64,000 nucleotides of DNA. Origin: Chiridota heheva (Eukaryota > Echinodermata > Holothuroidea > Apodida > Chiridotidae). Below are positions 10,335-64,000 of the stretch, piece by piece (within the stretch, counting starts at the first letter, position 1; each line of letters starts with the position of its first letter). The stretch covers positions 245,153-309,152 of the forward strand of contig JAIGNY010004489.1 of assembly GCA_020152595.1 (NCBI GenBank). Direction: 5' to 3'. The notes beneath the pieces were generated by a model, which was not told where the DNA came from, ran no database searches, and saw only the letters and a list, made by a program, of their open reading frames with translations. A program made the position numbers and the translations under genes.

Positions 10335-10809
10335 TGCCACTGCCCGCCACGCCACTGCCTCCACGCCACTGCCTCGCCACGCCACGCCACGCCACTGCCC
10401 GCCACGCCACTGCCCGCCACGCCACTGCCTCGCCACGCCACTGCCTCGCCACGCCACTGCCTCGCCACGCCACTGCCTCGCCACGCCACTGCCTCGCCAC
10501 GCCACTGCCTCGCCACGCCACTGCCCGCCACGCCACTGCGCCACGCCACTGCCTCGCCACGCCCACGCCACTGCCTCGCCACGCCACTGCCTCGCCACGC
10601 CACTGCCTCGCCACGCCACTGCCTCGCCACGCCACTGCCTCGCCACGCCACTGCCCGCCACGCCACTGCCTCGCACGCCACTGCCTCGCCACGCCACTGC
10701 CTCGCCACGCCACCGCCTCGCCACGCCACTGCCTCGCCACGCCACTGCCTCGCCACGCCACTGCGCCACGCCACTGCCTCCACGCCACTGCCCGCCACGC
10801 CACTGCCTC
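10335..10809. repeat. 16-bp minisatellite GCCACGCCACTGCCTC
   Basis: About 28-30 tandem units, including shortened units that omit TC or CTC. It lies 30 bp after the preceding 19-bp minisatellite. Every unit carries CpG sites, in contrast to the AT-rich surroundings. Open frames of 157-213 codons on both strands are repeat artefacts (reiterated Ala-Val-Ala-Trp-Arg and similar). Confidence 0.93.
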
Positions 10810-29939: not shown

Positions 29940-30425
29940 TATTGCTTGGAATTAAACCCCTCAAGAACTTGTGAACTAAACTCCCATGGCAACTTGGAAC
30001 TAAACCCCCACGGCAACTTGGAATTAATCTCCTACACAGCATGGAATTAAGCCCCGCACAGCTTAGAATTAAGCGCCTGCACAGCTTGGAATTAAGCGCC
30101 TGCACAGCTTGGAATTAAGCGCCTGCACAGCTTGGAATTAAGCGCCTGCACAGCTTGGAATTAAGCGCCTGCACAGCTTGGAATTAAGCGCCTGTACAGC
30201 TTGGAATTAAGCGCCTGCACAGCTTAGAATTAAGCGCCTGCACAGCTTGGAATTAAGCGCCTGCACAGCAGCGCCTGCACAGCTTGGAATTAGCGCCTGC
30301 ACAGCTTGAAGCGCCTGCACAGCTTGGAATTAAGCGCCTGCACAGCTTGGAATTAAGCGCCTGCACAGCTCGGAATTAAGCGCCTGCACAGCTTGGAATT
30401 AAGCGCCTGCACAGCTTGGAATTAA
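29940..30425. repeat. 23-bp minisatellite, AATTAAGCGCCTGCACAGCT type
   Basis: About seventeen regular units of GGAATTAAGCGCCTGCACAGCTT between 30040 and 30425, with diverged units (AACTTGGAATTAAACCCC) at the left edge from 29940. Some units are shortened (30268, 30309). Related degenerate units reappear around the following SINE (30510-30580 and 30770-30905). Confidence 0.92.
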
Positions 30426-31240: not shown

Positions 31241-32164
31241 CGAACAATAAATTGTTTCAGCAAAATATTTTAATTTCCCCTAAAATCTGGACTATTACAT
31301 TTTAATTATTAGATAATTCAATCTTTTTCTTCAAAGACATACCCCATATCCTTCTCCCAAACATGCACTTTTAAGGTGAGATTTTAAAAAATCAAAATTT
31401 TCTTTGATCCGATGGGTTTTTCTTAGTTCCACTCCCTCCCCCCTTATGAGTTATGCCCTCCACGATCCCCAGCCCAATTCATGGATGAAGTTTGAGAGCA
31501 TGCATATCATTATGCAGAGATGTCTAGAGTTTATTAAGCTATTTGGATGAGGAGGAAATGCTCTTTCCCCCTCCAATATAAAATAGGACCTATTAATTCA
31601 TGATGGATGAAAAAAAACCTTCTTTACTTCCATGGGCACCTAGTACAAAATTACTTCAATTATATGACTATAATATTAAACATTTCTCTGTTTGCAGAGA
31701 AAGGGGCTATAAAACATGCTTGAAATTCAATTGGGTCTCACTGGGGGCTCTAACTGATTAAGCAGATCTCAATATCTTCAGATGTTAATCATAATATAAG
31801 CAGTGAAGAGTCCTGCCTGCACCACAACAGCTTCTAAAAAAATAAGGCATCAGAACTACACAACCTTTTGGTTTATAGTTAAAAATAACTGTAAAATTCC
31901 ATGGTGAAAGTCAAATTTGCATTGGTGAAAAGGAAGAAAACAATTTTATCGTTCTCTTGCAACAATCAAATTAGAATATTTTCCATGCCCTTTTCCTACC
32001 TTTGGCTCAAATCTATTTTACCGTTATGTATTTCTTTAGAGAGATTTAAATTAGGAGAGATGCATTGTGGGTTATAATGACAAAACTCTCCTGATTGGGA
32101 GACCTCCCGTTCAGGGGCGTTGACCGAACTGTTCATAGTACAAAGAATGTAAACAGACATTGTA
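31241..32164. other. Intergenic stretch without a gene
   Basis: No gene or repeat recognised up to the first unit of the satellite. Confidence 0.5.
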
Positions 32165-34060
32165 TAAAGAGCTCGGACCTGTATAGGGAGCTCAGACAAA
32201 AAAAGGTAGCTGAAACCAGAATAGGTAGCTTGGACAAGTATAGAGAGCTGAGACCAGTATAGGGAGCTGAGACCAGTAGAGGGAACTTGGACCAGTATAG
32301 AGAGCTGAGACCAGTATAGGGAGCTGAGACCAGAATAGGGAGCTGGACCAGAATAGGGAGCTCAAACCAGTATAGGGAGCTCGGACCAGTACTTGTTCTA
32401 GCTCCCTATACTGGTGTGAGCTCCCTATACTGGTCTCAGCTCTCTATACTGGTCTGAGCTCCCTATACTGGTCTGAGCTCCGTATACTGGTCTCAGCTCT
32501 CTATACTGGTCTGAGCTCTCTATACTGGTCCAAGCTACCTATACTGGTCCGAGCTCCCTATACTGGTCCGAGCTCCCTATACTGGTCCGAGCTCCCAATA
32601 CTGGTCCGAGCTCCCTATACTGTTCCGAGTTCCCTATACTGGTCTCAGCTCCCTATACTGGTCTGAGCTCTCTATACTGGTCCAAACTACCTATACTGGT
32701 CCGAGCTCCCTATACTGGTCCAAGCTCCCTATACTGGTCCGAGCTCCCAATACTGGTCCGAGCTCCCTATACTGTTCCGAGTTCCCTATACTGGTCGGAG
32801 TTCCCTACACTGGTCCCTATACTGGTCTGAGGTCCCTATACTGGTCCGAGGTCCCTATACAGGTCCAAAATCCCTATACTGGTCCAAAATCCCTACACTG
32901 GTCTGAGCTACCTATACAGCTCCGACCTTACTATATTGGTCTGAGCTCCCTATACTGATCTGATCTTCCTATACTGGTCCGAGCTCCCTATACTGGTCCG
33001 AGCTCCCTATACTGGTCCGAGCTCCCTATACTGGTCCGAGCTCGGACCAGTACAGGGAGCACAAACCAATAGAGAGCTCGGACCAGTAAAAGAAGATCAG
33101 AACAGCGTATTATACCAAATATTCATTTTATGCAATATACAAATACATGATGAGAAATAAATATGAATACATCTATGATAAGAACACAAACATTGTATAG
33201 GGAGCTTGCACCAATATAGGGAGCTCAGACCAGTATAGGGAGCTCAGACCAGTAAAGGGAGCTCAGACCAGTAAAGGAAGATCAGAACAGCATTTTATAC
33301 CAAACATGCATTTTATGCAAAATACTGTAAGATGATAGAAAATAAATATGGATACATCTATGATTAGAAGACAAACATTATATAATATTATACCAAACAT
33401 GCATTTTATGCAAAAAACTATAAAATGATAAGAAATAAATATGAGTACATCTATGATCAGAACACAAACATTGTATGGGAGCTTGCACCAGTATAGGGAG
33501 CTCAGACCAGTACAGGGAGCTCGGACTAGTAAAGGAACATCAGATCAGCATTTTATACCAAACATGCATTTTATGCAAAATACTATAAATGATGAAAAAT
33601 AAATATGAATACATCTATGATTAGAACACAAATATTGTTTAATATTATACCAAACATGCATTTTATGCAAAAGAATAAAAAATGATAAAAAATAAATATG
33701 AATACATCTATGATCAGAATACAAACATTGTATAGGGAGATTGCACCAATATAGGGAGCTCAGACCAGTATATGCAGCTCAGATTAGTAAAGGAAGATCA
33801 GAACAGCAATTTATACCAAACATGCATTTTATGCATTATATAAAATGACACTCAAGAAATAAATATGAATACATTTATGATCAGAACACAAACATTGTAT
33901 AGGAAGCTAATTGCACCAGTATTGGGAGCTCAGACCAGTATAGGTCGCTTGCACCAGTATAGGGAGCTCAGACCAGTATAGGTTGTTCCCACCAATACAG
34001 GGAGATCGGACCGGTACAGGCAGCTCAGAACAGTACAGGCAGCTCAGACCAAGGAGCTTC
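32165..34060. repeat. Satellite array 1: 19-bp units plus AT-rich modules, with an inverted block
   Basis: The 19-bp unit (TATAGGGAGCTCGGACCAG and variants) runs on the plus strand from 32165 to about 32396. It flips to the opposite orientation (AGCTCCCTATACTGGTCCG) from about 32400 to 33040, then returns to plus. From 33100 to 33900 it alternates with about six copies of an AT-rich module of roughly 105-115 bp (CCAAACATGCATTTTATGCA through AATATGAATACATCTATGAT). Each standard 19-bp unit contains the palindrome GAGCTC. The array ends near 34060 at unique DNA. Confidence 0.95.
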
Positions 34061-37085: not shown

Positions 37086-37380
37086 CTATCTGATATTTGA
37101 CCACCTTTTCCTGTTTGGCAGAGGCTCGTCACTAATTTCTGCTTCACTTGGTTGACAGGCAGTTACATTGCTTTTTAATGCTCCAATTTCTACCTGCAAC
37201 AACATTGGTTTAGCATGTGATGTCCAAACTGCTCCATTGTTGGGTTGTCATGGGAACCTCTGGCTCCAAGCTGTTTAACAAAGAACTCTTCAATGGGTTC
37301 CTGGTTGAACTTGTTGCTTAGTACAAATGTCTTACCTTCTACTTGCAGCAATTCCTTTCTAATTTCAACAAATGAGTTCA
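37086..37380 (-). pseudogene. P-element/THAP9-type transposase, C-terminal exon
   Basis: P-element-type transposases cut and paste DNA and carry a conserved block near the C-terminus of the form TVNSF.E...FVL..RFNQDPLE.FF..QR..G..NDNP....F. After the acceptor TTTCTTTCATAG this exon gives NSFVEIRKELL, KTFVLSNKFNQEPIEEFFVK and RGSHDNPTMEQFGHHML, a clear match in order and spacing. The frame then hits TAG at 37191. A second frame (VEIGALKSNVTACQ to KRWSNIR, stop at 37086) continues with coding-like sequence, so there is either a donor at CAG|GTAGAA (37194) or a frameshift. With the upstream exon at 38150-38276 the splice phase fits (G|TG). Family call is by eye. Confidence 0.65.
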
Positions 37381-37539
37381 CTATGAAAGAAAAAGAGAAC
37401 AACAACTGTTGTAACTTGAATTTTTTATACTGATTTCTTTTAAAAAAACACAGTATATGAAACCTGTGACATTGATGTGAAAAAAAAACAATGAGTTTTT
37501 TCTTTTATCTATTTTACATATTATTATTATTTATTTTGT

Positions 37540-40859: not shown

Positions 40860-43800
40860 CAGCATATAATATCAAAAATACATTTTAAGCAATATATAAA
40901 TACATTATAGGAAACAAATATAAATACATCTATGATCAGAAAACAAACATATTTTGGGGAATTCAGACCAGTACAGGGCGCTCGGGCCTGTACATGGCGC
41001 TCAGATCAGTACATGAAGCCCTGACCAGTACAGAGAGCTCGGACCAGTATAGGGAGTTCAGAGCAGTATAGGGAGCTCAGACCAGTATAGAAAGCTCAGA
41101 CCAGTATAGGGAGCTCAGACCAGTATAGGGAGCTCAGACCAGTATAGGAAGCACAAACCAATACAGGCAGCTCGGACCAGTACAGGCAGCTCAGAACAGT
41201 ACGGGCAGTACAGGCAGCTCAGACATAGATCAGCACAGCACATTATATCAAAAATACATTTTAGGCAAGATATAAATACATTATAAAAAACAAATATAAA
41301 TACATATATGATCAGAAAACAAACATATTTTTGGGAGTTTAGATCAATACAGGGTGCTCGGGCCTGTACATAGTATAGGGAGCTCAGACCAGTATAGGGA
41401 GCTCTGACAGTAAAGGAAGATCAGAACAGCGTAATATACCAAACATGCATTTTTTGCAAAATACTATAAATTGATGAAAAATAAATATAAATACATCTAT
41501 GATTAGAACAAAAACATTGTTTAATATTATACCAAACATGCATTTTATGCAAAAGGATATAAAATGATAAGAAATAAATATGAATACATCTGTGATCAGA
41601 ACACAAAAATTTGTATAGGGAGCTTGCACCAATATAGGGAGCTCAGAACAGCAATTTATACCAAACATGCATTTTATGCGATATATAAAATGATAAGAAA
41701 TGAATATGAATACATCTATGATCAGAACACAAACATTGTATAATATTATACCAAAGATCAGAACAGCATATTATACCAAACATGCATTTTATGCAATATA
41801 TCAAATGATAAGAAATAGATATGGATACATCTATAATCAGAACACAAACATTGTATAGGAAGCTAATTGCACCAGTATTGGGAGCTTAGACCAGTATAGG
41901 TCGCTTGCACCAGTATGGGGAGCTCAGACCAGTATAGGTCGCTCGCACCAGTGTAGGGAGCCCAGACCAGTATAGGTCACTCGCACCAATACAGGGAGCT
42001 AGGACCAGTACAGGCAGCTCAGAACAGTACGGGCAGCTCAGACCAGTACAGGCAGCTCAGACATAGATCAGCACAGCACATTATATCAAAAATACATTTT
42101 AGGCAAGATATAAATACATTATAAGAAACAAATATAAATACATATATAATCAGAAAACATACATATTGGGAGTTTAGACCTGTACAGGGAGCTCGGACCA
42201 GTACGGGGAGCTCGGACGAGAACAGGGAGCTAGGACCAGTACAAGGAGCTTGGACCAGTACAGGGAGCTCGGACCAGTACAGGGAGCTCGGACCAGTACA
42301 GGGAGCTCGGACCAGTACAGGGAGCTCGGACCAGTACAGGGAGCTCGGACCAGTACAGGGAGCTCGGACCAGTACAGGGAGCTCGGACCAGTACAGGGAG
42401 CTCGGACCAGTATAGGGAGCTCGGACCAGTACATGGAGCTCGGACCAGTACATGGAGCTCGGACCAGTACAGGGAGCTCGGACCAGTACAGGGGGAGCTC
42501 GGACCAGTATAGGGGAGCAGTATAGGGAGCTCGACCAGTATAGGGAGCATAGGGAGGACCAGTATATGGAGCTCGGACCAGTATATGGAGCTCGGACCAG
42601 TATAGGGAGCTCGGACCAGTATAGGGAGCTCGGACCAGTATAGGGAGCTCGGACCAGTATATGGAGCTCGGACCAGTATATGGAGCTCAGTATAGGGGAC
42701 CAGTATAGGAGCTCGGACCAGGGAGCTCGGATAGGGAGCTCGGACCAGTACAGGGAGCTCGGACCAGTACATGGAGCTCAGACCAGTACAGGGAGCTCGG
42801 ACCAGTACATGGAGCTCGGACCAGTATAGGGAGCTCGGACCAGTATATGGAGCTCGGACCAGTATAGGGAGCTCGGACCAGTAGAGGGAGCTCGGACCAG
42901 TAGGAGGAGCATGGAGGACCAGTATAGGGAGCTCGGACCAGTATAGGGAGCTCGGACCAGTACAGGGAGCTCGGACCAGTACAGGGAGCTCGGACCAGTA
43001 TATGGAGCTCGGACCAGTATATGGAGCTCGGACCAGTACAGGGAGCTCGGACCAGTATAGGGAGCTCGGACCAGTATAGGGAGCTCGGACCAGTATATGG
43101 AGCTCGGACCAGTATATGGAGCTCGGACCAGTATAGGGTGCTCGGACCAGTATAGGGAGCTCAGACCAGTATAGGGAGCTCAGACCAGTATAGGGAGCTC
43201 AGACCAGTATAGGGAGCTCAGACCAGTATAGGGAGCTCAGACCAGTATAGGGAGCTCAGACCAGTATAGGGAGCTCAGACCAGTATAGGGAGCTCGGACA
43301 GTAAAGGAACATCAGAACAGCGTATTATACCAAACATGCATTTTATGCAAAATACTTCAAAATGATGAAAAATAAATATAAATACATCTATGATTAGAAC
43401 ACAAACATTGTTTAATATTATACCAAACATGCATTTTATGCAAAAGAATATTAAATGATAGGAAATAAATATGAATACATCTATGATCAGAACAGAAACA
43501 TTGTATAGGGAGACTGCACCAATATAGGGAGCTTAGACCAGTACAGGCAGCTCAGAACAGTACAGGCAGCTCGGACCAGTACAGGCAGCTCAGACTTAGA
43601 TCAGCACAGCATATTATATCAAAAATACATTTTAAGCAATATATAAGTACATTATAAGAAACAAATATAAATACATCTATGATCAGAAAACAAACATATT
43701 TTTGGGAGTTCAGACCAGTGCAGGGCGCTTGGGCCTGTACATGGCGCTCAGATCAGTACACGGAGCCCGGACCAAAACAGGGAGCTTGGACCAGTACAGG

Positions 43801-46800
43801 GAGCTCGGACCAGTACAGGGAGCTCGGACCAGTACAGGGAGCTCGGACCAGTACAGGGAGCTCGGACCAGTACAGGGAGCTCGGACCAGTACCGGGAGCT
43901 CGAACCAGTATAGGGAGCTCAGACCAGTATAGGGAGCTCGGACAGTAAAGGAAGATCAGAACAGCGTAATATACCAAACATGCATTTTTTACAAAATACT
44001 ATAAATTGATGAAAAATAAATATAAATACATCTATGATTAGAACACAAACATTGTTTAATATTATACCAAAAATGCATTTTATGCAAAAGGATATAAAAT
44101 GATAACAAATAAAGATGAATACATCTGTGATCAGAACACAAAAATTTGTATAGGGAGCTTGCACCAATATAGGGAGCTCAGACCAGTATAGGAAGATCAG
44201 AACAGCAATTTATACCAAACATGCATTTTATGCAATATATAAAATGATAGGAAATAAATATGAATACATCTATGATCAGAACACAAACATTGCATAGGGA
44301 GCCAATTGCACCAGTATTGGGAGCTCAGACCAGTATAGCTTGTTTGCACCAGTATAGGGAGCCCAGACCAGTTTGGTCGCTCGCACCAATACAGGCAGCT
44401 CAGACCAGTACAGGCAGCTCAGACATAGATCAGCACAGCATATTATATCAAAAATACATTATAAGAAACAAATATAAATACATCTATGATCAGAAAACAA
44501 ACATATTTTTGGGAGCTCAGCACAAGGCGCTCGGGCCTGTACTTGGTGCTCAGATCAGTACATGGAGCCTGGACCAGTACAGGGAGCTCGGACCAGTACA
44601 GGGAGTTCAGACCAGCACAGGGCGCTCGGGCCTGTACATGGCGCTCAGATCAGTACATGAAGCCCTGACCAGTACAGAGAGCTCGGACCAGTACAGGGAG
44701 CTCGGACCAGTACAGGAAGCTCGGACCAGTACAGGGAGCTCGGACCAGTACAGGGAGCTCGGACCAGTACAGGGAGCTCGGACCCAGTGCAGGCAGCTCG
44801 GACCAGTTTGGGAAGCTCGGACCAGTGCAGGGAGCTCGGACTAGTGGAGGGAGCTTGGACCAGTGCAGAAAGCTCGGACCAATGCAGGGAGCTCGGACCA
44901 GTGCAGAGAGCTCAGACCAGTGCAGGGAGCTTCGACCAGTACAGGGAGCTCGGACCAGTACAGGGAGCTCAAACCACTACAGGGAGCTCGGACCAGTAGA
45001 GGGAGCTCGAACCAGTATAGGGAGTTTGGACCTCAGCTGGGACCAGTATAGGCAGCTCGGACCTCAGCTCGGACCAGTATAGGCAGCTCAGATATAGATA
45101 AATCATCACGGCATATTATATCACAAATATATTTTAAACAATATATAACTACATGATAAGAAATAAATATGAATACATCTATAATTAGAAAACAGAAATC
45201 TGATAAAGAGCCAGTAAAGGAGCTCAGACCAGTATAGAAAGTTCCCACCAGTATAGGTAGCTCAGACCAATACACGGAGCTCAGACCAGTACAGAGAGTT
45301 CGGACCAGTAAAAGAAGATCAGAACAGCGTATAATACCAAAAACGCATTTTATGCAATGGATAAATACATGATCAGAAATAAATATGAATACATCTATGA
45401 TCAGAACACAAATGTCTAATAGGGAGCTTGCACCAATATAGGGAGCTCAGACCAGTAAAGGAGCTCAGACCAGTAAAGGAAGATCAGAACAGCATTTTAT
45501 ACCAAACATGCATTTTATGCGATTTATAAAATGATAAGAAATAAATAAGAATACATCTATGACCAGAACGCAAACATTGTATGGGAGCTTGCACCAATAT
45601 AGGGAGCTCAGACCAGTAAAGGGAGCTCAGACCAGTAAAGGAAGATCAGAACAGCAATTTATACCAAACATGCATTTTATGCGATATATAAAATGATAAG
45701 AAATAAATAAGAATACATCTATGACCAGAACACAAACATTGTATGCGAGCTTGCACCAATACAGGCAGCTCAGAACAGTACAGGCAGCTCAGACCAGAAC
45801 AGGCGCCTCAGACATAGATCAGCACAGCATATAATATCAAAAATACATTTTAAGCAATATATAAATACATTATAGGAAACAAATATAAATACATCTATGA
45901 TCAGAAAACAAACATATTTTGGGAGTTATACAAAAGACCAGAAATAAATATGAATACATCTATGATCATGAAGCCCAAACAGTACAGAAGCTCTGACCAG
46001 TACAGGGAGCTCAGACCAGTACAGGAGCTCGGACCAGTACAGGAAGCTCGGACCAGTACAGGAGCTCGGACCAGTACAGGGAACTCGGACCAGTACAGGG
46101 AACTCGGACTAGTACAGGGAGCTCAGACCAGTGCAGGGAGCTCGGACCCAGAGCAGGGAGCTAGGACCAGTTTGGGAAGCTCGGAGCAGTGCAGGGAGCT
46201 CGGAGCAGTGCAGGGAGCTCGGACCAGTGCAGGGAGCTCGGACCAGTGCAGGGAGCTCGGACCAGTGCAGGGAGCTCAGACGAGTGCAGGGAGCTCGGAC
46301 CAGTGCAGAGAGCTCAGACCAGTGCAGGGAGCTTCGACCAGTACAGGGAGCTCGGACCAGTACAGGGAGCTCAAACCACTACAGAGAGCTCGGACCAGTA
46401 GAGGGAGCTCGAACCAGTATAGGGAGTTTGGACCTCAGCTGGGACCAGTATAGGCAGCTCGGACCTCAGCTCGGACCAGTATAGGCAGCTCAGATATAGA
46501 TAAATCATCACAGCACATTATATCACAAATATATTTTAAACAATATATAACTACATGATAAGAAATAAATATGAATACATCTATAATTCAGAAAACAGAA
46601 ATTTTAAAGAGCCAGTATGGGAAGCTCAGACCAATATAGGAAGTTCAGACCAGTTTAGGTAGCTCAGACCAATACAGGGAGCTCAGACCAGTACAGAGAG
46701 CTCGGACCAGTAAAAGAAGATCAGAACAGCATATTATACCAAAAATGCATTTTATGCAATAGATAAATACATGATAAGAAATAAATATGAATACATCTAT

Positions 46801-47658
46801 GATCAGAACACAAACATTGTATAATATTAGTAAAGGAAGATCAGAACAGCATTATATACCAAACAGGCATTTTATGCAATATATAAAATGATAAGAAATA
46901 AATTTGAATACATCTATGATCAGAACACAAACATTGTATAGGGAGCTTGCACCAGTAAGCTTGAACCAGTACAGGAGCTCGCACCAGTATATGGAGCTCA
47001 GACCAGTAAAGGAAGATCAGAACAGCAATTGTTACTAAAAATACATTTTTATGCAATACATAAAATGATAAGAAATAAACATGATCAGAAATACATCTAT
47101 GATTAGAACCAAAAAAATTGTATAATATTATACCAAAGATCAGAACAGCATTTATACCAAACATGCATTTTATGCATTATATAAAATGATAAGAAATAAA
47201 TATGAATACATCTATGATCAGAACACAAACATTGTATAGGAGCTCGGACCAGTACATGGATTTTTGACCAGAATATAAAAGTAAGCTCGAACCAGTACAG
47301 GGAGCTCGGACCAGTACAGGGAGCTCGGACCAGTACAGGAAGTTCGGACCAGTACAGGGAGCTCGGACCAGTACAGGGAGCTCGGACCAGAACAGGAGCT
47401 CGGACCAGTACAGGAGCCGGACCAGTACAGGGAGCTCGGACCAGTACAGGGTGCTCGAACCAGTACAAGGTGCTCAGACCAGTATAGGGAACTGGACCAG
47501 TATAGGAGGTCGGACCATCATAGGGAGGTCGCACCATGATAGGGAGCTGGGACCATTATAGGAAGCATGAACCAGTATAGGGAGCTCAGACCAATACATA
47601 GATCATCACGGCAAATTATATCACAAATATAGTTTAGGCAATATACATTAAGAATTTT
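40860..47658. repeat. Satellite array 2: irregular 19-bp and AT-rich modules
   Basis: Plus-oriented 19-bp units occur in blocks of 2 to about 50. The longest is 42174-43290, interspersed with AT-rich modules of two kinds: one with CCAAACATGCATTTTATGCA, the other with TCAAAAATACATTTTAAGCA. Units vary at one site (TACAGGG, TATAGGG, TATATGG, TGCAGGG). Larger pieces are duplicated: about 44.9-45.3 kb recurs at 46.3-46.7 kb (offset near 1,400 bp), and about 41.4-41.7 kb recurs near 43.95-44.2 kb. The stretch 42.48-42.75 kb is scrambled by small indels. Long open frames on both strands come from the repeat. Confidence 0.95.
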
Positions 47659-48045
47659 GGCCCTTAGACCCTCCAACCCGACACCACTGATTTTCTCAAA
47701 ATCAGGGGTAATCCACACCATTCAACCCGAGAGACTCTTCACACTTCATTGACTAGCATCCAGCTATTGTTACACCATTTACAACACAGGGTAATGCATA
47801 TCTTCTTATCTGATAACATCTTCATGGTCTATTCACATTTCACTTGTTAGCAACCAGCTACTGTTACACTGTACACAATAGGTCATTCATCTTGGGCTCA
47901 AGACACATAACTGCTGTTCAGTGATGCGAATCAGATTAGTCCTTGGCAGAGCCTAAATAAAAACATACATTATATGCTTGAGAGAACTTTGTGCAAAACT
48001 CATGAATGATTGATGGACCATTCCTCGTAAGGAAGGTTATTTCAT
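47659..48045. repeat. 387-bp cassette inside the higher-order repeat, first copy
   Basis: This part has no 19-bp or AT-module homology. It contains a hairpin (CTGATTTT, CTC, AAAATCAG) near its start and two related sub-blocks about 94 bp apart (TAGCATCCAGCTATTGTTAC at about 47754, TAGCAACCAGCTACTGTTAC at about 47848). Further copies start at each unit start of array 3. No open frame or RNA gene is recognised in it. Confidence 0.85.
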
Positions 48046-51000
48046 CATGCAGAACAAAAACATTATATGGGGACTTGCACCAGTATAGGGAGCTCAGACC
48101 AAGCTCCGACCAGTAAAAGAAGATCAGAACAGCGTATTATACCAAAAATGCATTTTATGCAATATATAAATACATGTTAAGAAATAAATATAAATACATC
48201 TATGATCAGAACACAAATACTGTATAATATTATACCAAAGATCAGTACAGCATATTATGCCAAACATGCATTTTATGCAATATATAAAATGATAAGAAAT
48301 GAATATGAATACATCTATGATTAGAACACAAACATTGTATAATATTATACTAAAGATCAGAACAGCATATTATACCAAACATGCATTTTATGCAATATAC
48401 AAAATGATAAGAAATAAATATGAATACATCTATGATCAGAACACAAACATTGTATAGGTAGCTTGCACCAGTATAGGCAGCAGCATAGATAGAGAGCTCG
48501 CACCAGTACAGGAAGCTCGAACCAGTAAAGGGAGCTCGCACCAGTACAGGAGACCTAGGCACCAGTACAGGCAGCTCAGACCAGTATAGGCAGCTCAGAC
48601 ATAGATCATCATGCATATCATATCACAAAATATATTTTAACCAATATATAACTTAATGATAAGAACTAAATATGAATACATCTATAATCAGAAAACAGAC
48701 TTTTTATAGAGAGCCAGTATGGGAAGCTCAGACCAATATAGGAGCTCAGACCAGTTTAGAGAGCTCGCACCAGTATAGGAGCTCAGACCAGTATAGAGAG
48801 CTCGGACCAGTTAAAGAAGATCAGAACAGCATATTATACCAAAAATGCATTTTATGCAATATACAAATACATGATAAGAAATAAATATGAATACATCTAT
48901 GATCAGAACACAAACATTGTATAATATTATACCAAAGATCAGAACAGCATATCATACCAAACAGGCATTTTATGCAATATATAAAATGATAAGAAATAAG
49001 TTTGAATACATCTATGATCAGAACACAAACATTGTATAGGGGCTTGCACCAGTACAGGAAGCTTGAACCAGTACAGGGAGCTCGCACCAGTATAGGGAGC
49101 TTGGACCAGTAAAGGAAGATCAGAACAGCAATTGTTACCAAAAATACTTTTATGCAATACATAAAATGATAAGAAATAAATATGAATACATCTATGATTA
49201 GAACTTAAAAAATTGTATAATATTATACCAAAGATCAGAACAGCATATTATACCAAACATGCATTTTATGCATTATATAAAATGATAAGAAATAAATATG
49301 AATACATCTATGATCAGTACACAAACATTGTATAGGAGCTCGGACCAGTACAGGAGCTCGGACCAGTACAGTAAGCTCGAACCAGTACAGGGAGCTCGGA
49401 CCAGTACAGGGAGCTCGGACCAGTACAGGAAGTTCGGACCAGTACCGGGAGCTCGGACCAGTACAGGGAGCTCGGACCAGAACAGTGAGCTCGGACCAGT
49501 ACAGGGAGCTCGGACCAGTACAGGGAGCTCGGACCAGTACAGGGTGCTCGAACCAGTACAAGGTGCTCAGACCAGTATAGGGAACTCGGACCAGTATAGG
49601 GAGGTCGGACCATCATAGGGAGGTCGCACCATGATAGGGAGCTGGGACCCGTATAGGGAGCACGAACCAGTATAGGGAGCTCAGACCAATACACATAGAT
49701 CATCACGGCAAATTATATCACAAATATAGTTTAGGCAATATACATTAAGAATTTTTGGCCCTTAGACCCCTCCAACCCGACACCACTGATTTTCTCAAAA
49801 TCAGGGGTAATCCACACCATTCAACCCGAGAGACTCTTCACACTTCATTGACTAGCATCCAGCTATTGTTACACCATTTACAACACAGGGGTAATGCATA
49901 TCTTCTTATCTGATAACATCTTCATGGTCTATTCACATTTCACTTGTTAGCAACCAGCTACTGTTACACTGTACACAATAGGTCATTCATCTTGGGCTCA
50001 AGACACATAACTGCTGTTCAGTGATGCGAATCAGATTAGTCCTTGGCAGAGCCTAAATAAAAACATACATTATATGCTTGAGAGAACTTTGTGCAAAACT
50101 CATGAATGATTGATGGACCATTCCTCGTAAGGAAGGTTATTTCATCATGCAGAACAAAAACATTATATGGGGACTTGCACCAGTATAGGAGCTCAGACCA
50201 AGCTCCGACCAGTAAAAGAAGATCAGAACAGCGTATTATACCAAAAATGCATTTTATGCAATATATAAATACATGTTAAGAAATAAATATAAATACATCT
50301 ATGATCAGAACACAAATACTGTATAATATTATACCAAAGATCAGTACAGCATATTATGCCAAACATGCATTTTATGCAATATATAAAATGATAAGAAATG
50401 AATATGAATACATCTATGATTAGAACACAAACATTGTATAATATTATACTAAAGATCAGAACAGCATATTATACCAAACATGCATTTTATGCAATATACA
50501 AAATGATAAGAAATAAATATGAATACATCTATGATCAGAACACAAACATTGTATAGGTAGCTTGCACCAGTATAGGCAGCAGCATAGATAGAGAGCTCGC
50601 ACCAGTACAGGAAGCTCGAACCAGTAAAGGGAGCTCGCACCAGTACAGGGAGCTCGCACCAGTACAGGCAGCTCAGACCAGTATAGGCAGCTCAGACATA
50701 GATCATCACGGCATATCATATCACAAATATATTTTAACCAATATATAACTTAATGATAAGAACTAAATATGAATACATCTATAATCAGAAAACAGACTTT
50801 TTATAGAGAGCCAGTATGGGAAGCTCAGACCAATATAGGGAGCTCAGACCAGTTTAGAGAGCTCGCACCAGTATAGGGAGCTCAGACCAGTATAGAGAGC
50901 TCGGACCAGTTAAAGAAGATCAGAACAGCATATTATACCAAAAATGCATTTTATGCAATATACAAATACATGATAAGAAATAAATATGAATACATCTATG

Positions 51001-54000
51001 ATCAGAACACAAACATTGTATAATATTATACCAAAGATCAGAACAGCATATCATACCAAACAGGCATTTTATGCAATATATAAAATGATAAGAAATAAGT
51101 TTGAATACATCTATGATCAGAACACAAACATTGTATAGGGGCTTGCACCAGTACAGGAAGCTTGAACCAGTACAGGAGCTCGCACCAGTATAGGGAGCTT
51201 GGACCAGTAAAGGAAGATCAGAACAGCAATTGTTACTAAAAATACTTTTTATGCAATACATAAAATGATAAGAAATAAATATGAATACATCTATGATTAG
51301 AACTTAAAAAATTGTATAATATTATACCAAAGATCAGAACAGCATATTATACCAAACATGCATTTTATGCATTATATAAAATGATAAGAAATAAATATGA
51401 ATACATCTATGATCAGTACACAAACATTGTATAGGGAGCTCGGACCAGTACAGGAGCTCGGACCAGTACAGTAAGCTCGAACCAGTACAGGAGCTCGGAC
51501 CAGTACAGGAGCTCGGACCAGTACAGGAAGTTCGGACCAGTACAGGGAGCTCGGACCAGTACAGGAGCTCGGACCAGAACAGGAGCTCGGACCAGTACAG
51601 GAGCTCGGACCAGTACAGGGAGCTCGGACCAGTACAGGGTGCTCGAACCAGTACAAGGTGCTCAGACCAGTATAGGGAACTCGGACCAGTATAGGGAGGT
51701 CGGACCATCATAGGGAGGTCGCACCATGATAGGGAGCTGGGACCCGTATAGGAAGCATGAACCAGTATAGGAGCTCAGACCAATACACATAGATCATCAC
51801 GGCAAATTATATCACAAATATAGTTTAGGCAATATACATTAAGAATTTTTGGCCCTTAGACCCTCCAACCCGACACCACTGATTTTCTCAAAATCAGGGT
51901 AATCCACACCATTCAACCCGAGAGACTCTTCACACTTCATTGACTAGCATCCAGCTATTGTTACACCATTTACAACACAGGGTAATGCATATCTTCTTAT
52001 CTGATAACATCTTCATGGTCTATTCACATTTCACTTGTTAGCAACCAGCTACTGTTACACTGTACACAATAGGTCATTCATCTTGGGCTCAAGACACATA
52101 ACTGCTGTTCAGTGATGCGAATCAGATTAGTCCTTGGCAGAGCCTAAATAAAAACATACATTATATGCTTGAGAGAACTTTGTGCAAAACTCATGAATGA
52201 TTGATGGACCATTCCTCGTAAGGAAGGTTATTTCATCATGCAGAACAAAAACATTATATGGGGACTTGCACCAGTATAGGGAGCTCAGACCAAGCTCCGA
52301 CCAGTAAAAGAAGATCAGAACAGCGTATTATACCAAAAATGCATTTTATGCAATATATAAATACATGTTAAGAAATAAATATAAATACATCTATGATCAG
52401 AACACAAATACTGTATAATATTATACCAAAGATCAGTACAGCATATTATGCCAAACATGCATTTTATGCAATATATAAAATGATAAGAAATGAATATGAA
52501 TACATCTATGATTAGAACACAAACATTGTATAATATTATACTAAAGATCAGAACAGCATATTATACCAAACATGCATTTTATGCAATATACAAAATGATA
52601 AGAAATAAATATGAATACATCTATGATCAGAACACAAACATTGTATAGGTAGCTTGCACCAGTATAGGCAGCAGCATAGATAGAGAGCTCGCACCAGTAC
52701 AGGAAGCTCGAACCAGTAAAGGAGCTCGCACCAGTACAGGAGCTCGCACCAGTACAGGCAGCTCAGACCAGTATAGGCAGCTCAGACATAGATCATCACG
52801 GCATATCATATCACAAATATATTTTAACCAATATATAACTTAATGATAAGAACTAAATATGAATACATCTATAATCAGAAAACAGACTTTTTATAGAGAG
52901 CCAGTATGGGAAGCTCAGACCAATATAGGGAGCTCAGACCAGTTTAGAGAGCTCGCACCAGTATAGGGAGCTCAGACCAGTATAGAGAGCTCGGACCAGT
53001 TAAAGAAGATCAGAACAGCATATTATACCAAAAATGCATTTTATGCAATATACAAATACATGATAAGAAATAAATATGAATACATCTATGATCAGAACAC
53101 AAACATTGTATAATATTATACCAAAGATCAGAACAGCATATCATACCAAACAGGCATTTTATGCAATATATAAAATGATAAGAAATAAGTTTGAATACAT
53201 CTATGATCAGAACACAAACATTGTATAGGGGGCTTGCACCAGTACAGGAAGCTTGAACCAGTACAGGGAGCTCGCACCAGTATAGGGAGCTTGGGCCAGT
53301 AAAGGAAGATCAGAACAGCAATTGTTACCAAAAATACTTTTTATGCAATACATAAAATGATAAGAAATAAATATGAATACATCTATGATTAGAACTTAAA
53401 AAAATTGTATAATATTATACCAAAGATCAGAACAGCATATTATACCAAACATGCATTTTATGCATTATATAAAATGATAAGAAATAAATATGAATACATC
53501 TATGATCAGTACACAAACATTGTATAGGGAGCTCGGACCAGTACAGGGAGCTCGGACCAGTACAGTAAGCTCGAACCAGTACAGGGAGCTCGGACCAGTA
53601 CAGGGAGCTCGGACCAGTACAGGAAGTTCGGACCAGTACAGGGAGCTCGGACCAGTACAGGGAGCTCGGACCAGAACAGGGAGCTCGGACCAGTACAGGG
53701 AGCTCGGACCAGTACAGGGAGCTCGGACCAGTACAGGGTGCTCGAACCAGTACAAGGTGCTCAGACCAGTATAGGGAACTCGGACCAGTATAGGGAGGTC
53801 GGACCATCATAGGGAGGTCGCACCATGATAGGGAGCTCGGACCCGTATAGGAAGCATGAACCAGTATAGGGAGCTCAGACCAATACACATAGATCATCAC
53901 GGCAAATTATATCACAAATATAGTTTAGGCAATATACATTAAGAATTTTTGGCCCTTAGACCCCTCCAACCCGACACCACTGATTTTCTCAAAATCAGGG

Positions 54001-57000
54001 GTAATCCACACCATTCAACCCGAGAGACTCTTCACACTTCATTGACTAGCATCCAGCTATTGTTACACCATTTACAACACAGGGGTAATGCATATCTTCT
54101 TATCTGATAACATCTTCATGGTCTATTCACATTTCACTTGTTAGCAACCAGCTACTGTTACACTGTACACAATAGGTCATTCATCTTGGGCTCAAGACAC
54201 ATAACTGCTGTTCAGTGATGCGAATCAGATTAGTCCTTGGCAGAGCCTAAATAAAAACATACATTATATGCTTGAGAGAACTTTGTGCAAAACTCATGAA
54301 TGATTGATGGACCATTCCTCGTAAGGAAGGTTATTTCATCATGCAGAACAAAAACATTATATGGGGACTTGCACCAGTATAGGGAGCTCAGACCAAGCTC
54401 CGACCAGTAAAAGAAGATCAGAACAGCGTATTATACCAAAAATGCATTTTATGCAATATATAAATACATGTTAAGAAATAAATATAAATACATCTATGAT
54501 CAGAACACAAATACTGTATAATATTATACCAAAGATCAGTACAGCATATTATGCCAAACATGCATTTTATGCAATATATAAAATGATAAGAAATGAATAT
54601 GAATACATCTATGATTAGAACACAAACATTGTATAATATTATACTAAAGATCAGAACAGCATATTATACCAAACATGCATTTTATGCAATATACAAAATG
54701 ATAAGAAATAAATATGAATACATCTATGATCAGAACACAAACATTGTATAGGTAGCTTGCACCAGTATAGGCAGCAGCATAGATAGAGAGCTCGCACCAG
54801 TACAGGAAGCTCGAACCAGTAAAGGAGCTCGCACCAGTACAGGAGCTCGCACCAGTACAGGCAGCTCAGACCAGTATAGGCAGCTCAGACATAGATCATC
54901 ACGGCATATCATATCACAAATATATTTTAACCAATATATAACTTAATGATAAGAACTAAATATGAATACATCTATAATCAGAAAACAGACTTTTTATAGA
55001 GAGCCAGTATGGGAAGCTCAGACCAATATAGGAGCTCAGACCAGTTTAGAGAGCTCGCACCAGTATAGGGAGCTCAGACCAGTATAGAGAGCTCGGACCA
55101 GTTAAAGAAGATCAGAACAGCATATTATACCAAAAATGCATTTTATGCAATATACAAATACATGATAAGAAATAAATATGAATACATCTATGATCAGAAC
55201 ACAAACATTGTATAATATTATACCAAAGATCAGAACAGCATATCATACCAAACAGGCATTTTATGCAATATATAAAATGATAAGAAATAAGTTTGAATAC
55301 ATCTATGATCAGAACACAAACATTGTATAGGGGGCTTGCACCAGTACAGGAAGCTTGAACCAGTACAGGGAGCTCGCACCAGTATAGGGAGCTTGGGCCA
55401 GTAAAGGAAGATCAGAACAGCAATTGTTACCAAAAATACTTTTTATGCAATACATAAAATGATAAGAAATAAATATGAATACATCTATGATTAGAACTTA
55501 AAAAAATTGTATAATATTATACCAAAGATCAGAACAGCATATTATACCAAACATGCATTTTATGCATTATATAAAATGATAAGAAATAAATATGAATACA
55601 TCTATGATCAGTACACAAACATTGTATAGGGAGCTCGGACCAGTACAGGGAGCTCGGACCAGTACAGTAAGCTCGAACCAGTACAGGGAGCTCGGACCAG
55701 TACAGGGAGCTCGGACCAGTACAGGGAGCTCGGACCAGTACAGGGAGCTCGGACCAGTACAGGGAGCTCGGACCAGTACAGGGAGCTCGGACCAGTACAA
55801 GGAGCTCGGACCAGTACAGGGAGCTCGGACCAGTACAGGGTGCTCGAACCAGTACAGGGTGCTCAGACCAGTATAGGGAACTTGGACCAGTATAGGGAGG
55901 TCGGACCATCATAGGGAGGTCGCACCATGATAGGGAGCTCGGACCCGTATAGGAAGCATGAACCAGTATAGGGAGCTCAGACCAATACACATAGATCATC
56001 ACGGCAAATTATATCACAAATATAGTTTAGGCAATATACATTAAGAATTTTTGACCCTTAGACCCCTCCAACCCGACACCACTGATTTTCTCAAAATCAG
56101 GGGTAATCCACACCATTCAACCCGAGAGACTCTTCACACTTCATTGACTAGCATCCAGCTATTGTTACACCATTTACAACACAGGGGTAATGCATATCTT
56201 CTTATCTGATAACATCTTCATGGTCTATTCACATTTCACTTGTTAGCAACCAGCTACTGTTACACTGTACACAATAGGTCATTCATCTTGGGCTCAAGAC
56301 ACATAACTGCTGTTCAGTGATGCGAATCAGATTAGTCCTTGGCAGAGCCTAAATAAAAACATACATTATATGCTTGAGAGAACTTTGTGCAAAACTCATG
56401 AATGATTGATGGACCATTCCTCGTAAGGAAGGTTATTTCATCATGCAGAACAAAAACATTATATGGGGACTTGCACCAGTATAGGGAGCTCAGACCAAGC
56501 TCCGACCAGTAAAAGAAGATCAGAACAGCGTATTATACCAAAAATGCATTTTATGCAATATATAAATACATGTTAAGAAATAAATATAAATACATCTATG
56601 ATCAGAACACAAATACTGTATAATATTATACCAAAGATCAGTACAGCATATTATGCCAAACATGCATTTTATGCAATATATAAAATGATAAGAAATGAAT
56701 ATGAATACATCTATGATTAGAACACAAACATTGTATAATATTATACTAAAGATCAGAACAGCATATTATACCAAACATGCATTTTATGCAATATACAAAA
56801 TGATAAGAAATAAATATGAATACATCTATGATCAGAACACAAACATTGTATAGGTAGCTTGCACCAGTATAGGCAGCAGCATAGATAGAGAGCTCGCACC
56901 AGTACAGGAAGCTCGAACCAGTAAAGGGAGCTCGCACCAGTACAGGGAGCTCGCACCAGTACAGGCAGCTCAGACCAGTATAGGCAGCTCAGACATAGAT

Positions 57001-60000
57001 CATCACGGCATATCATATCACAAATATATTTTAACCAATATATAACTTAATGATAAGAACTAAATATGAATACATCTATAATCAGAAAACAGACTTTTTA
57101 TAGAGAGCCAGTATGGGAAGCTCAGACCAATATAGGGAGCTCAGACCAGTTTAGAGAGCTCGCACCAGTATAGGGAGCTCAGACCAGTATAGAGAGCTCG
57201 GACCAGTTAAAGAAGATCAGAACAGCATATTATACCAAAAATGCATTTTATGCAATATACAAATACATGATAAGAAATAAATATGAATACATCTATGATC
57301 AGAACACAAACATTGTATAATATTATACCAAAGATCAGAACAGCATATCATACCAAACAGGCATTTTATGCAATATATAAAATGATAAGAAATAAGTTTG
57401 AATACATCTATGATCAGAACACAAACATTGTATAGGGGGCTTGCACCAGTACAGGAAGCTTGAACCAGTACAGGGAGCTCGCACCAGTATAGGGAGCTTG
57501 GGCCAGTAAAGGAAGATCAGAACAGCAATTGTTACTAAAAATACTTTTATGCAATACATAAAATGATAAGAAATAAATATGAATACATCTATGATTAGAA
57601 CTTAAAAAAATTGTATAATATTATACCAAAGATCAGAACAGCATATTATACCAAACATGCATTTTATGCATTATATAAAATGATAAGAAATAAATATGAA
57701 TACATCTATGATCAGTACACAAACATTGTATAGGAGCTCGGACCAGTACAGGGAGCTCGGACCAGTACAGTAAGCTCGAACCAGTACAGGAGCTCGGACC
57801 AGTACAGGGAGCTCGGACCAGTACAGGAAGTTCGGACCAGTACAGGAGCTCGGACCAGTACAGGGAGCTCGGACCAGAACAGGAGCTCGGACCAGTACAG
57901 GAGCTACAAGGAGCCGGACCAGTACAGGGAGCTCGGACCAGTACAGGGTGCTCGAACCAGTACAGGGTGCTCAGACCAGTATAGGGAACTTGGACCAGTA
58001 TAGGGAGGTCGGACCATCATAGGGAGGTCGCACCATGATAGGGAGCTCGGACCCGTATAGGAAGCATGAACCAGTATAGGGAGCTCAGACCAATACACAT
58101 AGATCATCACGGCAAATTATATCACAAATATAGTTTAGGCAATATACATTAAGAATTTTTGGCCCTTAGACCCCTCCAACCCGACACCACTGATTTTCTC
58201 AAAATCAGGGGTAATCCACACCATTCAACCCGAGAGACTCTTCACACTTCATTGACTAGCATCCAGCTATTGTTACACCATTTACAACACAGGGGTAATG
58301 CATATCTTCTTATCTGATAACATCTTCATGGTCTATTCACATTTCACTTGTTAGCAACCAGCTACTGTTACACTGTACACAATAGGTCATTCATCTTGGG
58401 CTCAAGACACATAACTGCTGTTCAGTGATGCGAATCAGATTAGTCCTTGGCAGAGCCTAAATAAAAACATACATTATATGCTTGAGAGAACTTTGTGCAA
58501 AACTCATGAATGATTGATGGACCATTCCTCGTAAGGAAGGTTATTTCATCATGCAGAACAAAAACATTATATGGGGACTTGCACCAGTATAGGAGCTCAG
58601 ACCAAGCTCCGACCAGTAAAAGAAGATCAGAACAGCGTATTATACCAAAAATGCATTTTATGCAATATATAAATACATGTTAAGAAATAAATATAAATAC
58701 ATCTATGATCAGAACACAAATACTGTATAATATTATACCAAAGATCAGTACAGCATATTATGCCAAACATGCATTTTATGCAATATATAAAATGATAAGA
58801 AATGAATATGAATACATCTATGATTAGAACACAAACATTGTATAATATTATACTAAAGATCAGAACAGCATATTATACCAAACATGCATTTTATGCAATA
58901 TACAAAATGATAAGAAATAAATATGAATACATCTATGATCAGAACACAAACATTGTATAGGTAGCTTGCACCAGTATAGGCAGCAGCATAGATAGAGAGC
59001 TCGCACCAGTACAGGAAGCTCGAACCAGTAAAGGGAGCTCGCACCAGTACAGGAGCTCGCACCAGTACAGGCAGCTCAGACCAGTATAGGCAGCTCAGAC
59101 ATAGATCATCACGGCATATCATATCACAAATATATTTTAACCAATATATAACTTAATGATAAGAACTAAATATGAATACATCTATAATCAGAAAACAGAC
59201 TTTTATAGAGAGCCAGTATGGGAAGCTCAGACCAATATAGGGAGCTCAGACCAGTTTAGAGAGCTCGCACCAGTATAGGGAGCTCAGACCAGTATAGAGA
59301 GCTCGGACCAGTTAAAGAAGATCAGAACAGCATATTATACCAAAAATGCATTTTATGCAATATACAAATACATGATAAGAAATAAATATGAATACATCTA
59401 TGATCAGAACACAAACATTGTATAATATTATACCAAAGATCAGAACAGCATATCATACCAAACAGGCATTTTATGCAATATATAAAATGATAAGAAATAA
59501 GTTTGAATACATCTATGATCAGAACACAAACATTGTATAGGGGCTTGCACCAGTACAGGAAGCTTGAACCAGTACAGGAGCTGCACCAGTATAGGGAGCT
59601 TGGGCCAGTAAAGGAAGATCAGAACAGCAATTGTTACTAAAAATACTTTTTATGCAATACATAAAATGATAAGAAATAAATATGAATACATCTATGATTA
59701 GAACCTAAAAATTGTATAATATTATACCAAAGATCAGGACAGCATATTATACCAAACATGCATTTTATGCATTATATAAAATGATAAGAAATAAATATAA
59801 ATACATCTATGATCAGTACACAAACATTGTATAGGGAGCTCGGACCAGTACAGGGAGCTCGGACCAGTACAGTAAGCTCGAACCAGTACAGGGAGCTCGG
59901 ACCAGTACAGGGAGCTCGGACCAGTACAGGAAGTTCGGACCAGTACAGGGAGCTCGGACCAGTACAGGGAGCTCGGACCAGTACAGGGAGCTCGGACCAG

Positions 60001-60257
60001 TACAGGGAGCTCGGACCAGTACAGGGAGCTCGGACCAGTACAGGGTGCTCGAACCAGTACAAGGTGCTCAGACCAGTATAGGGAACTCGGACCAGTATAG
60101 GGAGGTCGGACCATCATAGGGAGGTCGCACCATGATAGGGAGCTGGGACCCGTATAGGGAGCACGAACCAGTATAGGGAGCTCAGACCAATACACATAGA
60201 TCATCACGGCAAATTATATCACAAATATAGTTTAGGCAATATACATTAAGAATTTTT

Positions 60258-61891
60258 GCCCTTAGACCCTCCAACCCGACACCACTGATTTTCTCAAAAT
60301 CAGGGGTAATCCACACCATTCAACCCGAGAGACTCTTCACACTTCATTGACTAGCATCCAGCTATTGTTACACCATTTACAACACAGGGGTAATGCATAT
60401 CTTCTTATCTGATAACATCTTCATGGTCTATTCACATTTCACTTGTTAGCAACCAGCTACTGTTACACTGTACACAATAGGTCATTCATCTTGGGCTCAA
60501 GACACATAACTGCTGTTCAGTGATGCGAATCAGATTAGTCCTTGGCAGAGCCTAAATAAAAACATACATTATATGCTTGAGAGAACTTTGTGCAAAACTC
60601 ATGAATGATTGATGGACCATTCCTCGTAAGGAAGGTTATTTCATCATGCAGAACAAAAACATTATATGGGGACTTGCACTAGTATAGGAGCTCAGACCAA
60701 GCTCCGACCAGTAAAAGAAGATCAGAACAGCGTATTATACCAAAAATGCATTTTATGCAATATATAAATACATGTTAAGAAATAAATATAAATACATCTA
60801 TGATCAGAACACAAATACTGTATAATATTATACCAAAGATCAGTACAGCATATTATACAAACATGCATTTTATGCAATATATAAAATGATAAGAAATGAA
60901 TATGAATACATCTATGATTAGAACACAAACATTGTATAATATTATACTAAAGATCAGAACAGCATATTATACCAAACATGCATTTTATGCAATATACAAA
61001 ATGATAAGAAATAAATATGAATACATCTATGATCAGAACACAAACATTGTATAATATTATACCAAAGATCAGAACAGCATATCATACCAAACAGGCATTT
61101 TATGCAATATATAAAATGATAAGAAATAAGTTTGAATACATCTATGATCAGAACACAAACATTGTATAGGGGGCTTGCACCAGTACAGGAAGCTTGAACC
61201 AGTACAGGGAGCTCGCACCAGTATAGGGAGCTTGGGCCAGTAAAGGAAGATCAGAACAGCAATTGTTACCAAAAATACTTTTTATGCAATACATAAAATG
61301 ATAAGAAATAAATATGAATACATCTATGATTAGAACTTAAAAAAATTGTATAATATTATACCAAAGATCAGAACAGCATATTATACCAAACATGCATTTT
61401 ATGCATTATATAAAATGATAAGAAATAAATATGAATACATCTATGATCAGTACACAAACATTGTATAGGGAGCTCGGACCAGTACAGGGAGCTCGGACCA
61501 GTACAGTAAGCTCGAACCAGTACAGGGAGCTCGGACCAGTACAGGGAGCTCGGACCAGTACAGGAAGTTCGGACCAGTACCAAGAGCTCGGACCAGTACA
61601 GGGAGCTCGGACCAGAACAGGGAGCTCGGACCAGTACAGGGAGCTCGGACCAGTACAGGGAGCTCGGACCAGTACAGGGTGCTCGAACCAGTACAAGGTG
61701 CTCAGACCAGTATAGGGAACTCGGACCAGTATAGGGAGGTCGGACCATCATAGGGGAGGTCGCACCATGATAGGGAGCTCGGACCCGTATAGGAAGCATG
61801 AACCAGTATAGGAGCTCAGACCAATACACATAGATCATCACGGCAAATTATATCACAAATATAGTTTAGGCAATATACATTAAGAATTTTT
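60258..61891. repeat. Shortened higher-order unit with a 463-bp deletion
   Basis: This unit is 1,634 bp. After the module ending CACAAACATTGTATA at about 61050 it jumps straight to the module that starts AATATTATACCAAAGATCAG. It omits the block with TAGGTAGCTTGCACC, the TCATCACGGCATATC module and the next 19-bp block that other units carry (for example 58948-59410). Both break points lie in the same AT-rich module, as expected from unequal recombination. Confidence 0.88.
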
Positions 61892-64000
61892 GGCCCTTAG
61901 ACCCCTCCAACCCGACACCACTGATTTTCTCAAAATCAGGGTAATCCACACCATTCAACCCGAGAGACTCTTTCACACTTCATTGACTAGCATCCAGCTA
62001 TTGTTACACCATTTACAACACAGGGGTAATGCATATCTTCTTATCTGATAACATCTTCATGGTCTATTCACATTTCACTTGTTAACAACCAGCTACTGTT
62101 ACACTGTACACAATAGGTCATTCATCTTGGGCTCAAGACACATAACTGCTGTTCAGTGATGCGAATCAGATTAGTCCTTGGCAGAGCCTAAATAAAAACA
62201 TACATTATATGCTTGAGAGAGCTTTGTGCAAAACTCATGAATGATTGATGGACCATTCCTCATAAGGAAGGTTATTTCATCAAGCAGAACAAAAACATTA
62301 TATGGGGACTTGCACCAGTATAGGGAGCTCAGACCAAGCTCCGACCAGTAAAAGAAGATCAGAACAGCGTATTATACCAAAAATGCATTTTATGCAATAT
62401 ATAAATACATGTTAAGAAATAAATATAAATACATCTATGATCAGAACACAAATACTGTATAATATTATACCAAAGATCAGTACAGCATATTATGCCAAAC
62501 ATGCATTTTATGCAATATATAAAATGATAAGAAATGAATATGAATACATCTATGATTAGAACACAAACATTGTATAATATTATACTAAAGATCAGAACAG
62601 CATATTATACCAAACATGCATTTTATGCAATATACAAAATGATAAGAAATAAATATGAATACATCTATGATCAGAACACAAACATTGTATAGGTAGCTTG
62701 CACCAGTATAGGCAGCAGCATAGATAGAGAGCTCGCACCAGTACAGGAAGCTCGAACCAGTAAAGGAGCTCGCACCAGTACAGGAGCTCGCACCAGTACA
62801 GGCAGCTCAGACCAGTATAGGCAGCTCAGACATAGATCATCACGGCATATCATATCACAAATATATTTTAACCAATATATAACTTAATGATAAGAACTAA
62901 ATATGAATACATCTATAATCAGAAAACAGACTTTTATAGAGAGCCAGTATGGGAAGCTCAGACCAATATAGGAGCTCAGACCAGTTTAGAGAGCTCAGAC
63001 CAGTATAGGAGCTCAGACCAGTATAGAGAGCTCGGACCAGTTAAAGAAGATCAGAACAGCATATTATACCAAAAATGCATTTTATGCAATATACAAATAC
63101 ATGATAAGAAATAAATATGAATACATCTATGATCAGAACACAAACATTGTATAATATTATACCAAAGATCAGAACAGCATATCATACCAAACAGGCATTT
63201 TATGCAATATATAAAATGATAAGAAATAAGTTTGAATACATCTATGATCAGAACACAAACATTGTATAGGGGCTTGAACCAGTACAGGAAGCTTGAACCA
63301 GTACAGGAGCTGCACCAGTATAGGAGCTTGGGCCAGTAAAGGAAGATCAGAACAGCAATTGTTACTAAAAATACTTTTTATGCAATACATAAAATGATAA
63401 GAAATAAATATGAATACATCTATGATTAGAACTTAAAAAATTGTATAATATTATACCAAAGATCAGAACAGCATATTATACCAAACATGCATTTTATGCA
63501 TTATATAAAATGATAAGAAATAAATATGAATACATCTATGATCAGTACACAAACATTGTATAGGGAGCTCGGACCAGTACAGGGAGCTCGGACCAGTACA
63601 GTAAGCCTCGAACCAGTACAGGAGCTCGGACCAGTACAGGAGCTCGGACCAGTACAGGAAGCTCGGACCAGTACAGGGGAGCTCGGACCAGTACAGGGAG
63701 CTCGGACCAGAACAGGGAGCTCGGACCAGTACAGGAGCTCGGACCAGTACAGGGAGCTCGGACCAGTACAGGGTGCCTGAACCAGTACAGGGTGCTCAGA
63801 CCAGTATAGGGAACTTGACCAGTATAGGGAGGTCGGACCATCATAGGGAGGTCGCACCATGATAGGGAGCTGGGACCCGTATAGGGAGCATGAACCAGTA
63901 TAGGAGCTCAGACCAATACACATAGATCATCACGGCAAATTATATCACAAATATAGTTTAGGCAATATACATTAAGAATTTTTGGCCCTTAGACCCTCCA

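Follow-up and report, generated by a model that had tools for sequence, protein, structure and literature searches.

How does an array of nearly identical 2.1-kb units come to be built from short repeats that differ widely among themselves? We addressed this question at the right end of contig C3626 of the Chiridota heheva assembly, in a window (the whole stretch of DNA analysed) of 64,000 nucleotides that covers bases 245,153–309,152 of the 309,152-base contig. The contig stops at window position 64,000, which does not imply that the array ends there. Genome-wide counts given below refer to the 1.10-Gb assembly of 3,744 contigs.

A three-level satellite array

A preliminary description had proposed a three-level order like that of alpha satellite, and we recovered all three levels: a 19-bp repeat, an AT-rich module and a 2.1-kb unit. 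Eight head-to-tail units, followed by the first bases of a ninth, make up array 3 of the window, which occupies 47,646 to the contig end. Its beginning, formerly set at 47,659, had to be moved to the left, since homology to the unit is present from 46,341 onwards. From that position the repeat array is continuous, with a partial unit lacking the mobile element described below (U0), then U1–U8, then the start of U9. U0 corresponds to unit positions 811–2094 and is 94.5% identical to U2 at aligned bases (BLAST). Units start about two bases before the mobile element; seven of them are 2,092–2,107 bp long and U7 is 1,633 bp long. From 47,000 onwards, repeated 20-mers most often recurred at distances of 2,102, 2,103, 2,099, 2,095 and 2,108. 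The units and the two related arrays to their left are as follows.

32161..34051, no strand assigned: array 1, same monomers
40960..46340, plus strand: array 2, built of the same monomers, with diverged blocks that in part follow the order of unit positions 811–2094
46341..47643, plus strand: U0, partial unit that lacks the mobile element on its left and forms the left margin of the homogenised array (BLAST to U2)
47644..49740, plus strand: U1, higher-order unit, 2097 bp
49741..51834, plus strand: U2, higher-order unit, 2094 bp, reference unit
51835..53934, plus strand: U3, higher-order unit, 2100 bp
53935..56037, plus strand: U4, higher-order unit, 2103 bp
56038..58144, plus strand: U5, higher-order unit, 2107 bp
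58145..60242, plus strand: U6, higher-order unit, 2098 bp
60243..61875, plus strand: U7, higher-order unit, 1633 bp, 467-bp deletion between two AT modules
61876..63967, plus strand: U8, higher-order unit, 2092 bp
63968..64000, plus strand: U9, first 33 bases, truncated by the contig end

The assembly clearly contains the array, and copy number and unit order are read from it; the array belongs to a kind of non-coding repeat that is already known. The 19-bp repeat gave 450 plus-strand and 31 minus-strand matches in the window (two 19-mer forms, up to four mismatches); plus-strand searches of three mononucleotide shuffles gave no match. The AT module has a 115-bp period where it is tandem and is present eight times in U2. 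By scan, U2 contains one mobile element of about 404 bp, the eight AT modules, the remnant of the module that bears the element, and 36 19-mers. Its main inner features are listed here.

50223..50555, plus strand: three tandem AT modules of U2, 115-bp spacing
50701..50803, plus strand: variant AT module of U2, related to the element-carrying module but intact
50920..51137, plus strand: two tandem AT modules of U2
51216..51433, plus strand: two tandem AT modules of U2
51429..51787, plus strand: longest 19-bp block of U2, about 19 copies

At one edge, the earlier view that the two monomers are unrelated is open to doubt: a 19-mer form agrees with the 5′ end of the AT module at 13 of 19 bases, a weak likeness, chosen post hoc, that was reached in 1 of 2,000 Markov sequences. 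Open frames in the array were considered as genes and rejected, as they are short and repetitive and follow the 19-bp period. Within the window, no Rfam family matched at its gathering score and no tRNA was found.

Large units are far more alike than the monomers inside them, and each is a large tandem unit made from several diverged monomers, as in a higher-order repeat. Small indels between neighbouring units were changes of homopolymer length in 78 of 90 cases, the type expected from long-read base-calling, and we therefore give unit identity from substitutions only. Neighbours among U1–U8 were 98.6–99.9% identical at aligned bases (0.1–1.4% different). Inside a unit, mean identity was 0.79 for the 36 19-mers of U2, 0.80 for those of U4 and 0.835 (range 0.69–0.97) for the eight AT modules of U2. 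This gap, 98.6–99.9% against about 79% and 83%, bears out the proposed recent homogenisation of the 2.1-kb unit. With the shortened U7 left out, the seven remaining units differed by 3–24 substitutions per pair (21 pairs), and mismatches rose with the distance between units (rho 0.65, reached in 21 of 5,000 permutations).

The cassette is a dispersed mobile element

The preliminary description had taken each unit to carry a captured cassette of 387 bp. Comparison of flanks with dispersed copies revised both its size, which is about 404 bp (47,646–48,049), and its nature, since it is no unique capture but the insertion of a dispersed mobile element.

47646..48049, plus strand: mobile element copy 1 (the cassette), with ends CATTAAGAATTTT...TTTCATCATG

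A genome search with the 387-base cassette named 2,591 candidates, 40 of which were scored. All 40 were 92–100% identical over nearly the whole 387 bases, and 12 of them lie on C3626 and C3161, a second contig that carries the array. A 38-base piece from the 3′ end of the element had 834 matches in the assembly (up to two mismatches), and its reversed control had none. We took the 28 scored copies outside C3626 and C3161 for a scan of the ends, which were both recognised in 25; three (L009, L011 and L044), in which an end was altered or escaped recognition, were excluded. The dispersed copies share the ends CATTAAGAATTTTTGG and TTTCATCATG and are set in unrelated flanks, as is characteristic of a mobile element. 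The element has stops in all six frames and contains two non-adjacent internal direct repeats of 53 bp that are 79% alike. The cassette is a non-coding, non-autonomous mobile element of about 404 bp.

The same single base stands on both sides of the element in 20 of the 25 copies (shuffle mean 6.7; none of 20,000 shuffles reached 20), an odd insertion signature of the dispersed copies (L010–L043). The array copy lacks this identity, with A on the left and C on the right. We rejected assignment to Helentron or HINE elements, which insert between two T bases without target duplication, because T stands on both sides in only 6 of the 25 copies. One copy, L009 (C1732:580000-587500), lies beside a tandem array of its own internal repeat, expanded at a spacing of 84 bp, together with an inverted partial copy; this array is another route from element to satellite.

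A probable single insertion followed by homogenisation

Several observations bear on how the element came into the array. The left junction between satellite and element had 15 matches in the assembly, 8 on C3626, 4 on C3161 and 3 elsewhere (C577, C2068 and C3294); each of these last three carries two mismatches, which fall in the flank part only. The first copy in the window was missed by the junction pattern because one T is absent. At 13 positions the 12 array copies, with 11 or 12 of them agreeing, differ from the commonest base of 19 dispersed copies, and 7 of these 13 array-specific bases were found in none of the 19. A single founder is well supported by these data, and the element probably entered the satellite once.

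The one array copy compared was 95.9% like the element consensus, with other copies at 94.4–97.6%. Since the element stands about 4% from its consensus and neighbouring units differ by 0.1–1.4%, homogenisation of the unit appears to be younger than the insertion. Comparison with the intact variant module of U2 suggests that about 40 bp of the AT module are missing at the insertion site, a loss that may instead reflect a later deletion.

The array and its relatives on other contigs

The end of C3161, at 1,904,226, falls within the same array, which there runs on the opposite strand; the contig carries four more copies of the element at spacings of 2,129, 2,092 and 2,977 bp. Its units are 97.8–99.1% identical to U1–U6 and U8, and 97.5–99.3% when the shortened U7 is included (best single alignments). 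As C3626 and C3161 both end inside the array, on opposite strands, they probably flank one array that was broken by assembly. On the far side of C3161, matches to the 19-mer and the AT module continue over at least another 20 kb, 10 kb of which was read. C3161:1874401-1893921 holds sixteen single AT modules with identical match scores, separated by spacers of varying length that consist of 19-mers in the part read.

The same two monomers occur on other contigs. The AT-module core had 131 matches genome-wide and, among the places listed, all were on C3626, C3161, C3571 and C2714. A dimer of the 19-mer had 863 matches, and weaker 19-mer matches were found on further contigs, for example C1089, C3242 and C3667. 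The 10 kb read of C3242 contain a higher-order repeat of their own, with a period of about 1.6 kb (five best self-alignments 96.5–96.9%, others down to 93.5%, same strand) and a 22-bp relative of the 19-mer; no match to the cassette was kept there. C3571 aligns to itself with an offset of 870 bp (93.0% over 1.4 kb). We rejected C3571 as an allele of the window locus, as BLAST found no similarity between 400 bp of its flank and either the window or L029.

Arrays 1 and 2 had been described as the same monomers without the regular 2.1-kb order, which is partly right. Array 2 has no match to the cassette, which occurs in the window only from 47,659 on, but it holds blocks that are colinear with the part of the unit that lacks the cassette (44,939–46,281 at 84.3% and 41,066–42,062 at 85.0%). 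Together with U0 at 94.5%, these colinear blocks indicate that array 2 grades into array 3. The suggestion that the window preserves earlier stages side by side fits this gradient, but decay at the array edge explains array 2 equally well. In the middle of array 1 (32404-33042), 19-mers are inverted between two plus-strand blocks.

Rearranged units and a model of array formation

Two units depart from the common length. The 467-bp deletion of U7 left a chimeric module whose left part resembles module 3 (unit position 712) and whose right part resembles module 5 (unit position 1179); the switch lies in a stretch common to both.

60950..61060 (approximate limits), plus strand: chimeric AT module at the U7 deletion (alignment)

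On C3161, unit V3 is 2,977 bp long, about 885 bp longer than V2. Its register passes from about unit position 1,695 back to about 855–920, within 19-mers, and these limits of the switch are approximate.

We propose that the unit was made in steps. The 19-bp tandem repeat and the AT-rich module of about 115 bp formed mixed arrays, as their occurrence on other contigs shows, and the non-autonomous element of about 404 bp then entered an AT module, with good support for a single event. Unequal homologous exchange between short repeats would subsequently have multiplied a block made of eight AT modules, some 36 19-mers and the element, and would have kept its copies similar, with the element as a presumed passenger and the array probably spanning the gap between C3626 and C3161. 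Unequal exchange predicts the features seen in the chimeric module of U7, in the register switch of V3 and in the divergence that grows with distance. Gene conversion could produce the same similarity between units, and no more than two rearranged units speak for exchange. We regard this stepwise origin as highly probable and, by the same overall judgement, the array as very probably a non-coding satellite present at few loci of the assembly.

An alternative that keeps the same components is that a circle was excised, copied by rolling-circle replication and reinserted. Near-identical units of nearly one length agree with such copying, and satellite amplification via circles is described in the part of PMC8122249 available to us. 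Reinsertion is nevertheless hard to match with a junction that, outside C3626 and C3161, has just three near-matches with two mismatches, and exchange in place accounts better for the decay of similarity with distance and for the graded left edge; we consider the circle route unlikely. A more basic objection would be that the assembler duplicated one or two real units. The array does stop at the ends of both contigs, the units are very alike and most small indels between neighbours are homopolymer changes. Assemblers, however, usually collapse such arrays rather than expand them, and an artefact sits poorly with units that each have their own substitutions, with a 467-bp deletion in one unit and an extra 885 bp or so in another, with the same junction on two contigs and with divergence that grows with unit distance. 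Such duplication is very unlikely.

Nor did we find anything in favour of the pericentromeric or subtelomeric position that had been raised, and PARP1-like exons lie about 42 kb to the left of the first cassette. That the array has a chromosomal function, as part of a centromere or of a region near a telomere, is suggested by the resemblance of its higher-order structure to centromeric satellites and by family arrays that reach or nearly reach contig ends (C3626, C3161, C3571, C3242 and one end of C1089). Contigs are, however, expected to end at any hard repeat, a further array of C1089 lies in mid-contig, and the 131 matches of the AT-module core, on four contigs among those listed, are unlike a satellite common to all chromosomes, a count in which assembly collapse could hide more. 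We judge this function quite unlikely for the array. Finally, the whole 2.1-kb unit might be a large mobile element with internal repeats, given that the cassette is itself mobile and that its internal repeat of about 84 bp is tandemly expanded in L009. None of 19 dispersed copies, with up to 3 kb on each side (E 1e-5), matches the unit beyond about position 410, and every additional match in L009, L010, L023 and L025 involves only the element, which makes a mobile 2.1-kb unit extremely improbable.

Other features of the window and assembly

The PARP1-like exons are zinc-finger-like and lie on the minus strand at 2722-3048 and 5105-5398 (Pfam zf-PARP, below the curated cut-off); the exon at 5105-5398 had PDB matches to PARP1 down to 7.7e-18. 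Also on the minus strand are a reverse transcriptase fragment at 25888-26589 (RVT_1, 3.6e-11) and a weak match to a transposase RNase H C-terminal domain at 37190-37504 (1.9e-4, below cut-off). Two further tandem repeats are present, one GC-rich with a 16-bp period (10336-10809) and one with a 23-bp period (30017-30425). Elsewhere in the assembly, a 5.8S rRNA gene at C2964:6672-6818 scored 129.9 bits, against 98–119 bits for the 14 others over the cut-off; C2964 is possibly a foreign contig. A search for the COX1 family found no match in the assembly, and a stretch with 5.8S and 28S sequence (L046) resembles animal rDNA.

Discussion

Composite satellites with an embedded mobile element are known in which, as here, element and satellite are multiplied as one unit. 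To our knowledge their sequences are unrelated to the array described here, and a library search found no paper on them. Primate alpha-satellite higher-order repeats share with this array the multiplication of blocks of diverged monomers as one unit. Alpha satellite, however, has a 171-bp monomer, whereas the periods here are 19 and 115 bp, and the present array combines two different short monomers with a mobile element at few loci of the assembly. According to the review PMC8122249, alpha satellite is about 70% identical within units and up to 97–100% identical between them. The same review describes higher-order satellite units outside primates, in leaf beetles, where those named are dimers or trimers of a 211-bp monomer rather than mixed monomers with an element. 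The available part of PMC10048060 does not treat higher-order repeats. Helentron-type elements of oysters (PMC7492417, available in part) resemble the cassette in being short, non-autonomous, dispersed through the genome and provided with internal repeats. In those oyster elements the element carries satellite-like repeats, whereas here the satellite carries the element, and their insertion signature differs from that of the cassette.

The array leaves the known picture of satellites unchanged. Through one insertion and two rearranged units, it makes steps in the birth of an array readable from sequence, and within one genome the same two short repeats have given different higher-order units at different loci. 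More tentatively, AT modules and 19-mers may be prone to recombination and may repeatedly spawn higher-order repeats that differ in length, with 2.1 kb at this locus, about 1.6 kb on C3242 and 870 bp on C3571. The locus would then keep the order of events, with the single insertion as its clock: the age of the insertion would be close to that of other family members (about 4% from consensus), and homogenisation would be much younger (0.1–1.4% between neighbours).
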